Below, in pieces: positions 1-4,355 of a stretch of 21,841 nucleotides of DNA. This DNA is from Calocera cornea HHB12733 (taxonomy: Eukaryota; Basidiomycota; Dacrymycetes; Dacrymycetales; Dacrymycetaceae): assembly GCA_001632435.1 (NCBI GenBank), contig KV424171.1, positions 2,889 to 24,729 of the forward strand, read 5' to 3'. Position 1 is the stretch's first letter. The number at the start of each line of letters is the position of its first letter. Under the pieces are notes generated by a model. It did no database searches. It had not been told where the DNA came from and saw only the letters and a program-made list of their open reading frames with translations. Both the position numbers and the translations under genes were made by a program.

Positions 1-272
1 CTCTCATCCGACGGGACGCCTTTCCAGTTGTCCCGTTTGTAAATTGAGGACCATCCGATGAGAGAGAGTCTTCGCCCGTGAATCCGTCGGGTGCGTTCCG
101 TCGTATACGCCATTCCGAGAGGGTTCCGTGACCGGAACGGCTATACGGAATAAACCCCTCCAACCCGGAATTGGCTGACGGACCGGAGGGCGAGGCAGGG
201 CGAGTCCGGAAGGTGTCCGGACTTCCGGTGCCGTATCTCCGGAAGGCCGGAACGCGAAAAATTGGGCCACAG
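1..272 (-). repeat. GC-rich repeat-like segment at the window edge, possibly an LTR fragment
   Basis: This stretch differs from the sequence after it: it is rich in CCGGA/TCCGG words (several near 190-255, forming small imperfect inverted repeats). On the minus strand it opens with TGTGGCCC at about 272, the TG dinucleotide with which LTRs begin. A minus-strand frame stays open through it but shows no recognisable domain and has biased composition (Pro, Arg, Gly). A truncated LTR or other repeat end is the best guess. The other end and any target-site duplication lie outside the window, so this is inference. Confidence 0.25.
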
Positions 273-464
273 TGACAAAGGGAACTGTACAGCGTTATGT
301 GCATCCTCTGCGCACTGTATGCGATCGCCATAGGCCACTAGCCCTGCCTCATGTGATTTTTGCACCCGCATGGAAACAAAGTACTTCCGGCCTATGCCAG
401 GTCTAGTCGCACACACCAATCAAGAGTACACTACATTGTGCATCATTCTTCTTCCTTGGCTCCA

Positions 465-1331
465 ATGTCTCAGCCACCTCTCACGCCTGAACCTGCACGC
501 AATACCCAGCCCACTCGTGGCTCACCTTGTTGGACCCATGCGCATGTGAGACTGCCTACACGAGATGCCCCTGGAAACTGGCCTGCCTTCCCTGACAACG
601 GCCATGTTTGCAGCTCCTCCGTCTGTCTATGTTTCTACACTCTGCGCACTGTGTCTCATGTCCCCTAGTCCCTTTGCTCCCCTCTCCACGGTGACCCTGC
701 GCACTGTTTGCCTGCCCGCCCTCACACATTGATTCGTGGGGGTGGCAGGGGCCAAGCCACCTTCCAACCGTAAGCGCGCGCGCTCTGTCTATTTTCTTCA
801 CTGAACTATATGCAGAGGATGGGTCAACAACATGAGGGATGATATCGATGACGAGCTGGATGAAGACAAGGACGTCAACAATGCTCTGGGTGGTGACGCT
901 GCGCAGGGTCGTCCTCACCAGCCCAATGACACTGTTGCTCTCAGCAACACGTGGATCGCCATGTATGGCGAGCAGCACTCAGAGGACACCGAAGTGATAG
1001 CTTCTCTCCAAACGCAGATCTGCCAGCTCAACGCCAAACTCGCCGCGCTCCATCACACCAATGCGCAAAGTCAGGCAGATTGCACCGTCTCACTGCTGAA
1101 CTCGCCCGTATGGAACAAGACAATGTGCAGCATCAAGCTGAATTCAACCGAGTCACCGCCAAAGCAACAGCCTTGCGCGCACGCAACACCAAATTGCAGC
1201 ATGACCGAGCGGAGCTCCTCGAGCTATGCAAAATGGTTGTTCGCATAGGCACCTTGTCCCAAGCCCTGGGCACGCGGTGTTCTCGCACGGACAACACGGT
1301 TCCGCCCCCACCTCGCAGTCATAGATATTGA
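465..1331 (+). CDS. hypothetical coiled-coil protein, multi-exon or decayed
   Basis: I do not recognise this gene. A plausible start is the ATG at 465 (MSQPPLTPEP...). Splice-like sites follow: GTGACC at about 692 to GGCAG at about 749, and GTAAGC at about 770 to ATGCAG at about 815. A short basic stretch (SNRKRARS) lies between them and would suit a nuclear signal. From about 832 the product is very acidic (MRDDIDDELDEDKD), then forms a coiled coil (IASLQTQICQLNAKLAALHH), which continues in another frame from about 1083 (LTAELARMEQDNVQHQ...) to a TGA at 1329-1331. The frame change near 1080 needs an unseen intron or is a real frameshift, so this may be a pseudogene. Its stop lies only 31 bp from the stop of the convergent RPA gene. 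It carries several copies of the TGCGCA palindrome. Confidence 0.4.
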
Positions 1332-1362
1332 ACACACTGTGCATTGTTATTACTGTGACAAG

Positions 1363-3771
1363 TTACACACATTCAAACAGAGTAGCTATGTAGTTAATTT
1401 TCTTCTCCCACTGTTTCCGAAATTAGTAGATCATTTGTCAATGCGCAGTGTTTGCTTACCCGACGATTCGTTTGCGGCGTAGCCTCAATGATAATCCTCC
1501 AACAATGTGCATTGGGGACAGTCAAGAATGTTTTGTATGTTATGTGGTCCACCCACTGAAATCAGTCAGTACAATGCGCAGAGTGAGAAATACTGAATAT
1601 ACCTGTTTCGAATGCATCCATGTGTACATGTCGCTGGCGCTGTGCTGGATCAGGCGCGTTGATGCCCCATTGAAAACATGCACCCAAATTGGTTCACTGC
1701 CTGGCTCGTCAAAGATCGGGAAGTTCAGGTGCCACCTATTTGTTTTAGTGAAGACTCTGCGCAAAGTTGCATCACTTACTTGTGTCCAGGAACTGGGTAA
1801 TCCTGGCCGCACACATTGCACGTATATGGCCCTGCTGTATTCTTTAGCGTCATCTTATTGCACTCCTCGAACGGGCAGCTGAGGTAGATGTATTCTGGGC
1901 AACCAATCTTGATGTCCATGTTGGCGACCATGTAGAAAATGCTCTTGCTCTTCAGCCCAAGCTGCGTGTTCACCGCCTGCGCAATCATGTATGTCGCATT
2001 GGGGAGCGTGAATCTCCAATGCGGGAAGCCATCCGCACTGAAGCTGCCGGTAAGCGTATGCCAACTTTGCGCATTGTTGCCACCGTTCCTGAACCTGCCA
2101 TACAATGTGCAGTGTTGGGGGGTGAAGAGCCCACAAAATTGGACCACGCACCAGTGATGCATACGCTGCGCAGTGGGATTCAGCGGGTTGAAGTAGAACT
2201 TTGTATGTGCCCTGTCCAACTTCAAGCACGGACCGTTGAAGAACCCCACCGAGACAGACTTCAGGCACACAACCTGCCCAGCTCACCCAACGAATGCATG
2301 ACCTAGGCCGTCGAAGAGTACCAGGCGAATAGCAACCAGGGAGTCGTCAACAATCCACACATCGACTCGGCTAGACAACGGTCTGGACGCATGACCCTGC
2401 ACAGAGTCAGCGACAGTCCATCCCGTGCACCCCACCTTACCTTTGCTGCCTTTGCGTTCTCCAGCACTCCACTGTTAATTGGCTTCCCCATGCGATGAAT
2501 CACAGCCAAAATGTCTGTGTTGCATTCAGCTTGCTACTTGACTATGCGCATTGTCTTCCTTACCAATGTACATCCCTGTTCCAAGGCATTCCATTTTGTT
2601 GATCTTCAAGAAGTGGAAGTAGATGTGCGGGATGTTGGCGTTCTGCGGTTCCTGTTCGCTGTCAACAAAGTTCAACAGACTCTGCGCATTGCTCACGATA
2701 GTCTTTGTTGTATGCTCGTTCCACACCATTTGGTACTTGTGCGGCACCCGCCCAATTGCATCCGGGTTCTCCTCAACTTTTGCATCCTGAATATGCCATA
2801 CCTATGTGCACAGTTAGCGTACTACTCACACGCATACACTTCCTCACCAATCCGGGCACCATATCCGACAGATTCTCCACAAACGGCCCAAACCCGACAA
2901 ACTCGATCTTGCCCGTACGGTCAATGACCACCACCATTTGTCGGCCGTTCTTCTCCGCGTTCTGCTCGTACACTCGACAGTATAAGTCTCTGCGCAGAGT
3001 TCAGCTTATTGACCAGGTCCCCGCTTTTGCGACTCACACTCTGCGCATTGGGTCAATCTGGGCGACCTCTGTTTGCTGAACACCTGGCTGCATTGGGACG
3101 ATGACAGTGCGCACAGACTGTTGCGGAATGGGATTGGGTGCCTGGTCACTCAGACCTTCCGCTTTCACAGTCCTCCACTCAATACCATGCGCAGGGTTTG
3201 TCAGCGGCGGTGGCGGAGCGTGCAACTGGCCGGGATACCCAGCCTGAAGATGGTGATTGTCCGGGAAGATCGAGTGGCCGATATCAGGCATCTTCAACAT
3301 GTAGTGGTGCTTAGTTGATGCGCATTCAACACAATCTGATGTATGAATCTTCTGGTAGTCAATGATTGTTGTGATCCTGCTAACTGTTAGTACCTTGACC
3401 ATGCGCAAAGTCAATACATGCACCCTTTGCTGGCACCCGGACTCATCCCCACGCAATAGTGAAACACATCAAGAATGTCTCGAGTGTGCAGCTTCCCGGA
3501 CCGCAGCTCGGCAAGCATGCATCCTCTCGGGACCACCGGGAGCATACGATGCGCATTGCCGAGAACGACTCTGCGCAGGGTCAGCGTGCCGCTCTCACCA
3601 CTGGTGAGCTACTCACAACCAATCCAGCGGATCCACAAGCTGATTCATTGTTGGATTGCGCACAGGGGTGACCTTGACGACTTGAAGCACGGCGCAATAG
3701 TGATCCACGTGCGTCGTCCCCATGATCATGAGCGCCCCAGGCGTCAAGGGCTGAGCCGGCACCAGATCCAT
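1363..3771 (-). CDS. RPA1-like: replication protein A large subunit-like (RPA1/RPA70), 11 exons
   Basis: Single-stranded-DNA-binding protein of the RPA70 family, expected to act in the nucleus in replication and repair. Exons: complement(join(1363..1410, 1460..1555, 1603..1735, 1780..2094, 2152..2396, 2441..2514, 2564..2801, 2848..2989, 3038..3376, 3424..3570, 3617..3771)). They sum to 1932 nt and keep phase at every junction. Family features in order: the N-terminal QPLTPGAL and VLQVVKVTP start of DBD-F; an OB fold with VVVIDRTGKIEFVGFG (DBD-A); a second OB fold with VDVWIVDDSLVAIRLVLF (DBD-B); the four-cysteine zinc site of DBD-C, CPFEECNK then CNVC (about 1830-1890); and a C-terminal OB fold ending at TAA 1363-1365. 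Length (about 643 codons) fits the family. Two oddities: an in-frame TGA at 2283-2285 (codon 403), and a TGCGCA palindrome in every supported intron. It is divergent enough that it may be a paralogue of the housekeeping gene. Confidence 0.85.
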
Positions 3772-4355
3772 CGGGAGAGAGCGACAGCGGGAGGATCGAG
3801 AGACAGAGGTGTGGGGCAGCCATGCTGACTGACAGCCCAATTACCCTGCGCATGGTCTGCCTCCGCTTTGCTTCCGGTCCACTGCCCCAAGTCCATATAT
3901 TCCTCCCGTTCGCTTCTGTTCACCGGCCGCGTCATCGCCCTAGTTGCCCAGGGGTGCGCGGAGCAGGTGCTATATCTACTATGTCTCCTAATTCTACCAT
4001 ACATTATTCCCCTTCTGCCTGCAATGCCCATTGCCCCATTGATAGACTGTAGTGATGCTCAATGACTAACGCCAGGTGACATTGTAGTGGCGCCAGCCGC
4101 CAGGTGACCCTTCATTTTGCGGGATTTTTGCTGGAATGAGGAAGCAGTGATGGGCCCTGGCAAATTTGGGAGGGGAACCGTATTTGCTGCACCGGCTAAT
4201 TTGCCCGCTGTAGCTCGGAGATACAGGTGGGAGCAACAGGGAGTGGTTACAGCTCAACCCCAATCGGGGACACCTGTGATATTGTAGATATCCAATGATG
4301 ACCTGACGGCTCATAGTAATATTTGATCTCACGCCATGGAGCTTTTCAGGAAATA
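3772..4355. other. intergenic region: RPA1-like promoter and ligase 3' flank
   Basis: This 584-bp gap separates the end of the ligase gene from the start of the RPA1-like gene, both on the minus strand, so it should hold the ligase terminator and the RPA promoter. The last TGCGCA palindrome (3843-3856) lies about 72 bp upstream of the RPA ATG and marks the right limit of the motif island. An ATG in another frame at 3821-3823 precedes the chosen RPA start and could open a short upstream ORF. I saw no ACGCGT box here, unlike at the ligase promoter. Open frames in the gap have no family resemblance. Confidence 0.5.

Follow-up and report, generated by a model that had tools for sequence, protein, structure and literature searches.

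A dispersed palindromic word in Helitron2-like transposons of Calocera cornea

The locus and its transposon

Near the left end of a 21,841-nucleotide stretch of the Calocera cornea HHB12733 genome (contig KV424171.1; the whole stretch is called the window here) lies an island saturated with the hexamer TGCGCA, frequently set in the wider palindrome AC-NN-TGCGCA-NN-GT. Sequence comparison identifies the island as the 3′ third of a transposon of Helitron2-like type, about 12 kb long. The window contains 29 TGCGCA, 24 at core starts 309-3847 and five across the remaining 18 kb, the same counts that an initial annotation had reported. Chance would yield 2.2 cores in 309-3852 from the dinucleotide composition of the island (a dinucleotide model underlies the expected counts throughout) rather than the approximately one given there, and chance or base composition is rejected as the source of the island. 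The full palindrome surrounds 11 of the 24 cores, with AC present at 16 and GT at 15. Gaps between cores range from 22 to 380 bp; the lower figure had been given correctly, the upper as about 330 bp.

Complete relatives of the element occur on C36 and C118 (contig handles of this assembly, in which the window is C258). They measure about 12.1 and 12.3 kb and carry 76 and 77 cores, respectively, from end to end. Each encodes RepHel as a single-frame protein of 1990 aa (C36) or 1989 aa (C118), with a Rep (HUH) domain and a helicase in one protein (in C36, Helitron_like_N scores 107.7 bits and PIF1 67.6 bits, both above the Pfam cut-offs). The elements of C36, C118 and C79 start with TCCCTGGGC[AC]AC, where a hairpin is possible by eye, and those of C36, C118 and the window have GT[TG]GCCCAGGGG just before the last common base. 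These ends provide the asymmetric terminal inverted repeat and hairpin of Helitron2-like elements, and in C118 a change in one arm of the repeat is matched in the other.

The gene order in C36 is RepHel, gene 2 and the small genes 3a and 3b, with an RPA-like gene on the opposite strand. The RPA-like gene is a weak match in C36 (Rep_fac-A_C 26.3 bits and REPA_OB_2 21.8 bits, below Pfam cut-offs of 28.5 and 27), as is its window copy (Rep_fac-A_C 20.8 bits, also below cut-off). Gene 3b encodes a small protein that is basic in its N-terminal part and appears by eye to contain a leucine-rich coiled coil; a protein search with it returned nothing at E 0.001 among 1624 candidates. Gene 2 belongs to a family without assigned function; a search of 5.8 billion proteins gave 3 hits and no relative outside C. 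cornea, and one C. cornea hit is 93-100% identical by exon to the C79 gene copy. Its predicted structure, with a mean pLDDT (predicted local distance difference test) of 35.2, is too poor to use. Within the genome, gene 2 has 27 matches, exons counted apart, mostly on contigs that also bear Helitrons (C8, C28, C62, C7, C48, C67, C23, C82, C21, C86 and others).

The RepHel region of the window's element appears to lie on C79. C79 contains two thirds of a Helitron, counted from the 5′ end, and the window a final third that does not overlap with them; both are bordered by the same long terminal repeat (LTR), with GCGT before the LTR in C79 and after it in the window. Because of the shared LTR, the GCGT on either side and the non-overlapping thirds, we conclude that a retrotransposon most probably split a single Helitron into the parts now found on C79 and in the window. 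Of the sharp limits that had been claimed for the island, the right one holds and coincides with the Helitron 3′ terminus (3943-3973). The left one, placed at 305, does not, as the LTR lies immediately outside it and the element seems to continue on C79. Ownership of the island by a mobile element, which had been suggested, is supported, and the island is not a self-contained unit.

Table 1. Coordinates of the features in and around the island, numbered from the first letter of the window
Feature	Position	Strand	Detail
TGCGCA cores (n=24)	305..3856	none	starts 309, 539, 643, 698, 900, 1062, 1442, 1575, 1758, 1978, 2068, 2167, 2545, 2683, 2991, 3042, 3108, 3188, 3319, 3402, 3550, 3572, 3657, 3847
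Full AC-NN-TGCGCA-NN-GT sites (n=11)			14-mer starts 639, 694, 896, 1571, 1754, 2064, 2541, 3184, 3398, 3568, 3843
CpG-decayed full site, TGTGCA core	1334..1347	none	TGCGCA in C36 at the same column
CpG-decayed full site, TGTGCA core	2102..2115	none	TGCGCA in C36 and C118 at the same column
CpG-decayed full site, TGCACA core	2394..2407	none	TGCGCA in C36 and C118 at the same column
Retrotransposon LTR, right part	1..291	none	99.7% identity to C79:136875-137165; cuts the Helitron and sets the island's left limit
Helitron2-like transposon, 3′ third	292..3973	+	417-3973 has 77.8% identity to C36:192229-195793; 3′ terminus common to C36, C118 and window
Gene 3b	465..1331, approximate	+	tblastn with C36 protein: window 465-770 and 925-1226
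RPA-like gene	1480..3775, approximate	-	sub-cut-off Pfam matches; tblastn conservation in C36 and C118
Asymmetric terminal inverted repeat, 3′ copy GTTGCCCAGGGG	3943..3954	+	partner TCCCTGGGCAAC at 5′ end of C79 and C36
Last bases common to C36 and C118	3955..3973	+	Helitron 3′ end to within one or two bases

Conservation, spacing and coding context of the sites

Comparison of the relatives shows that AC-NN-TGCGCA-NN-GT is a selected recognition site, which tiles the whole length of one Helitron2-like clade, the RepHel coding sequence included. In the alignment of C36, C118 and C79, 51 of the 76 C36 cores are TGCGCA at the same C118 columns, against 962 of 12220 other 6-mers (8%) and 48 of 772 NNCGNN words (binomial tail 6e-38). 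Cores are kept both inside RepHel (24 of 31, or 21 of 31 on the codon alignment) and outside it (27 of 45). The window cores behave similarly: 14 of 24 are kept in C118 (other 6-mers, 201 of 3329) and 20 of 24 in C36, the closer relative (854 of 3685). In the outer positions of the 51 kept sites, identities are 0.69 and 0.82 (AC) and 0.90 and 0.84 (GT), compared with 0.63 and 0.71 in the left spacer, 0.45 and 0.67 in the right spacer, and means of 0.56 and 0.53 over the 16 bases beyond the sites. This 14-bp footprint with freer spacers supports the earlier proposal of protein half-sites as opposed to copied DNA. Whatever the mechanism, 51 of 76 sites kept while their flanks drift to about 55% identity amount to a clean footprint inside a transposon, and to a directly testable question.

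The excess within coding sequence survives synonymous-codon shuffling, in which the protein and codon use are fixed and codon-pair bias is not preserved. RepHel of C36 contains 31 TGCGCA where shuffled versions contain 6.3 ± 2.4, and RepHel of C118 contains 30 where they contain 4.8 ± 2.0; none of 500 shuffles reaches the observed count in either case. Codon usage alone is therefore rejected as the cause of the excess. The initial annotation had also considered insertions of a tiny palindromic mobile unit, and this idea, like a by-product of codon or base composition, draws on the high density only. The relatives differ mostly by in-place substitutions: 19 of the C36 cores absent from C118 are replaced by substitutions and 6 lie opposite a gap, and 17 of the 18 sites of a Harbinger transposon (see below) align without gaps to a relative on C6. 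Together with the codon shuffle, these alignments leave such insertions or by-products a negligible probability.

Sites might instead act in RNA, for example in splicing, as some overlap a 3′ splice site in the form TGCGCAG in introns of genes 2 and 3b (by eye, in the same three-way alignment). Single-frame RepHel reading frames nevertheless hold 31 and 30 sites, and the word is strand-symmetric and occurs on the strand opposite the RPA-like gene as well, all of which makes a role in RNA most improbable. As an observation in its own right, several cores stand exactly at intron ends in C36:190500-192700, seen by eye with C118 and C79, where the word has been fitted into the splice signals.

The sites are also evenly spaced. 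The mean gap is 159 bp in C36 and 156 bp in C118, about one site per 155-160 bp, with coefficients of variation of 0.59 and 0.56, whereas random placement gives 0.90 and 0.89 (P < 0.0002 in 5000 trials; 0.0002 in a second C36 run). No even spacing is seen for seven further 6-mers common in C36, most of which are fragments of the sequence around the word. Spacing of about 155 bp approaches a nucleosome repeat in length. For the remaining elements, the P values for evenness are 0.008 (C79), 0.039 (window), 0.035 (C45), 0.053 (C34), 0.11 (C64) and 0.18 (C116).

Outside the cores, C79 and the window have lost many CpGs. Of the non-core CpGs common to C36 and C118, C79 keeps 65 of 166 (GC control, 207 of 270) and the window 46 of 101 (GC control, 101 of 133), and the lost ones are mostly now TG or CA. 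This decay fits methylation of these elements. Decay is weaker in shared cores, whose CpGs are kept at 25 of 32 in C79 (p 7e-5) and 14 of 21 in the window (p 0.096; pooled p 2e-5). Being transposon-specific and CpG-centred, in copies that decay at CpG, the sites could be a means for the host to recognize and silence these transposons. Such marks would be purged by selection on the element, yet the sites are kept in place, and this reading appears very improbable.

Words in other lineages and other transposons

A search of all 32.1 Mb of the genome finds 161 places with the full 14-mer pattern and 37 with a reversed control pattern. A genome-wide count had been advised from the start, and it reveals other islands: 109 of the 161 places fall into seven of them (C36 35, C118 25, C79 19, the window 11, C64 7, C34 6 and C243 6), and the other 52 form no further dense cluster among the matches listed genome-wide. 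TGCGCA reaches 4.2-6.5 per kb in four Helitron stretches and 0.19-0.97 per kb in ten flanking stretches. An equally high density genome-wide is rejected by both the seven-island concentration and the low density of the flanks.

RepHel DNA was examined for 13 of 36 Helitron_like_N matches (C36, C118, C79, C140, C116, C45, C8, C62, C28, C7, C125, 2.5 kb of C67 and 2.3 kb of C48). With C48 set aside because its sample contains pieces of the LTR found at the window's left end, three of these loci have TGCGCA, three have CACGTG and one has a word of GCGC type, the latter two words being CpG-centred dyads as well, and five have no such word. CACGTG occurs 23 times each in RepHel of C116 and C45, where codon shuffling gives means of 5.2 and 7.0 (0 of 500 each), 47 times over 12.7 kb of C45, and 10 times in the C67 sample (1.2 expected). 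The CACGTG sites of C116 and C45 share the same place in 6 of 23 cases, compared with 361 of 5703 other 6-mers (p 0.0025). In C140, GCGCCA/TGGCGC occurs 29 times against 6.6 ± 2.4 in codon-shuffled sequence (0 of 500). A motif model for this element, A-(A/C)-NN-(T/G)GCGC(C/A)-(A)-N-(T)-T, seeded on GCGCCA/TGGCGC and trained on the same element it was counted in, finds 161 places in 13.3 kb; overlapping hits number 266 there, and 13 in each of two similarly sized control stretches. The AA and TT arms of the C140 word lie at the same distances from the dyad centre as the AC and GT of the window word.

Consequently, a single word common to all Helitrons is rejected, as CACGTG, GCGC-type and wordless elements exist. 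In C8, C62, C28, C7 and C125, none of the three words is in comparable excess (the lowest shuffle rank is 33 of 500, for TGCGCA in C8), and no other dyad is that strong. The AGACGGAC repeat of C8 was rejected as such a word, being a tandem microsatellite directly behind the RepHel frame (C8:318240-318480). Gene 2 was likewise rejected as a mark of motif-bearing elements, with diverged matches on C8, C28, C62 and C7 beside motif-less Helitrons.

An unrooted tree of 10 RepHel proteins, all from elements of this genome, groups the word-bearing (C116,C45) and (C140,(C36,C118)) apart from the wordless ((C7,C125),(C8,(C62,C28))). Since the word types match these groups, the words track element lineage. 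Differing words across lineages argue against a single host CpG methyltransferase as their reader. In-place conservation, the 14-bp footprint, even spacing, the excess over shuffled codons and the lineage-dependent words together indicate that the sites are selected and lineage-specific. DUF6570 precedes the Rep domain in RepHel of C36 (aa 277-419), C140 and C8. A scan for RepHel relatives in viral contigs found none.

The TGCGCA word is not confined to Helitrons. C34 (172883-175604) and C243 (22047-24768) carry two copies, at 99.5% identity, of a 2.7-kb PIF/Harbinger element, recognizable by a DDE_Tnp_4 transposase (49.8 bits), perfect inverted repeats of 21 bp and 3-bp target duplications (TGA and TAA). 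This element has 18 TGCGCA cores where 1.7 are expected. A single element on C64 contains 13 cores; its DDE_3 match scores 24.1 bits, short of the 28.6 required. These islands have the same outer AC/GT as the Helitrons: for C34 and C64 together, the outer A and C positions stand at 0.71 and 0.71, for the Helitrons at 0.70 and 0.84, and the spacer preference differs. The C34 and C243 copies are nearly identical, sit in different flanks and have kept their inverted repeats intact, which suggests that the Harbinger carrying the shared word moved recently.

Seven relatives of the Harbinger transposase (58-73% identity) have no cluster at their places among the matches listed. One of the Harbinger relatives, on C6, shares 66.7% nucleotide identity over 2333 bp and contains 2 cores within 2961 bp. 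Alignment to C6 is gapless for 17 of the 18 sites in C34 (15 of 15 in the BLAST-aligned part), and one core is identical in C6. The word was therefore gained in C34 or lost in C6 by in-place substitutions.

The spread of the word among transposon classes bears on two explanations of its function. Host transcription or chromatin factors could bind the sites as pioneer or enhancer sites, with lineages differing in the factor they exploit, for example a bHLH protein for CACGTG, the classical E-box. A host factor would simply explain the same 14-mer in Helitrons, a Harbinger and a DDE_3 element. The 14-mer is, however, not a common host regulatory site, because it has only 161 places in 32 Mb and 109 of them are in transposon islands. 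The C140 word, which shares the geometry of the C36 word with shifted bases, looks more like co-evolution with a changing protein. A host factor is, on balance, rather unlikely.

Alternatively, the sites could serve replication or transposition by loading RepHel, the RPA-like protein or the gene 2 product, or by handling a circular intermediate. The elements do encode RepHel, the RPA-like gene and gene 2, and the sites span them from end to end. This explanation has to contend with the same word in a Harbinger, a type of element that does not replicate by rolling circle, with the five examined Helitrons that have no word, and with a strand symmetry that suggests double-stranded DNA as the substrate. 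It is therefore regarded as distinctly improbable.

Possible function of the words

We infer that a dimeric sequence-specific protein binds the dyads. Such a protein would coat the element along its tiled words. It would probably be encoded by the element itself and change together with its word, the small proteins 3b and 3a being candidate binders. With less certainty than the binder, the coat may keep the element's chromatin open by preventing CpG methylation or heterochromatin, in function like VANC on VANDAL transposons, and other transposons could borrow this protection by evolving the word. Selected word tiling combined with a dimeric, probably element-encoded coat that keeps element chromatin open is the best explanation as a whole, held tentatively and a little short of probable. 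Its anti-silencing function is the best functional guess and an unproven one. A more specific version, a conceivable but more doubtful one, treats the word as a chromatin password: a lineage-specific CpG-centred dyad, repeated at roughly nucleosome-length intervals over the whole element with its coding sequence, which a co-evolving dimeric protein would recognize and so insulate the element from silencing. Related Helitrons would have changed this password, and the unrelated Harbinger would have forged one version of it by point mutation so as to share the protection.

Several observations weigh against the element-encoded coat. By tblastn, 3a and 3b are found in C36, C118, C79 and the window and not in C140 or C45; they can at most explain the 14-bp words. 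Small proteins of similar appearance are present in C140 by eye, and none was seen in C45. Gene 2 also adjoins wordless Helitrons. The five examined Helitrons without such a word still have an open RepHel frame, and the word is thus not needed by every Helitron. Evenness of spacing is weak or absent in several elements, and in C140, with its loose pattern, the spacing is not even. Intact C118 also keeps core CpGs better than others (28 of 31 versus 64 of 110), and because it shows the same preference as the decayed copies, selection before decay suffices to account for the survival of core CpGs. Finally, a host factor would be just as compatible with a word common to several transposon classes.

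The closest known parallel is the VANDAL/VANC system of Arabidopsis. As described in the available parts of two reports, VANDALs contain family-specific short words at high density, which a transposon protein binds to demethylate its own family (PMC5735166, PMC10398659). Dense family-specific words inside the element, and other words in related families, are features that the Calocera elements share. The VANC words, as far as these sources go, have one orientation, form tandem repeats, are mainly non-coding and turn over fast. In contrast, the Calocera words are dyads that are dispersed at even intervals, kept at aligned places and frequent in coding sequence, with 31 and 30 cores in RepHel of C36 and C118. 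VANDALs are Mutator-like, whereas the elements here have Helitron proteins and ends. Binding by VANC is documented in those sources, while binding at the Calocera sites is predicted.

Many short protein sites are also found in cut-and-paste transposons such as CACTA or Ac, as transposase-binding subterminal repeats. These are near the ends, whereas the Calocera sites run evenly through 12 kb. Among Helitrons, the accessible text on FoHeli, the Helitron2-like elements of Fusarium (PMC5148889), describes RepHel, an asymmetric terminal inverted repeat and a 5′ hairpin, as in Calocera. Unlike the Calocera elements with their RPA-like gene, gene 2 and 3a/3b, FoHelis have no RPA-like gene in that text, which describes no dispersed internal word. 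The Pleurotus elements HELPO1 and HELPO2 are likewise basidiomycete Helitrons with a RepHel gene, but differ in their ends and in the length of RepHel (about 1400 aa versus about 1990 aa here), and the accessible part of their description mentions no dispersed word (PMC4289320). Fungal DNA transposons of several superfamilies, Helitron and Harbinger included, share a TET/JBP anti-methylation gene, according to the portion available of PMC12730594. In that case different superfamilies share one anti-silencing device, an enzyme gene; in Calocera the device would be a DNA word. Pfam scans of three RepHel proteins and of accessory open reading frames gave no TET/JBP match. No report of such dispersed sites in Helitrons was found in titles and abstracts, and no paper on C. 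cornea DNA methylation or on Calocera Helitrons, in a search that left most subscription journals outside.

If the coat exists as proposed, transposons would carry an element-wide recognition code that constrains their own coding sequence and can be copied by other transposons. Sequence-specific self-protection would then not be peculiar to plant Mutator elements. The three words on one tree would offer natural replicates of a switch in protein-DNA specificity, and the words themselves would serve as short tags in studies of how basidiomycete DNA is kept open.

A further candidate word appears in the retrotransposon. The LTR that cuts the Helitron (C79:136528-137165) is rich in TCCGGA, with 6 occurrences in 638 bp where 0.6 are expected, which may be another such word or chance in a short sequence. 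Pieces of the LTR at window 1-291 recur at 95-99% identity in the 2.3-kb sample of C48.

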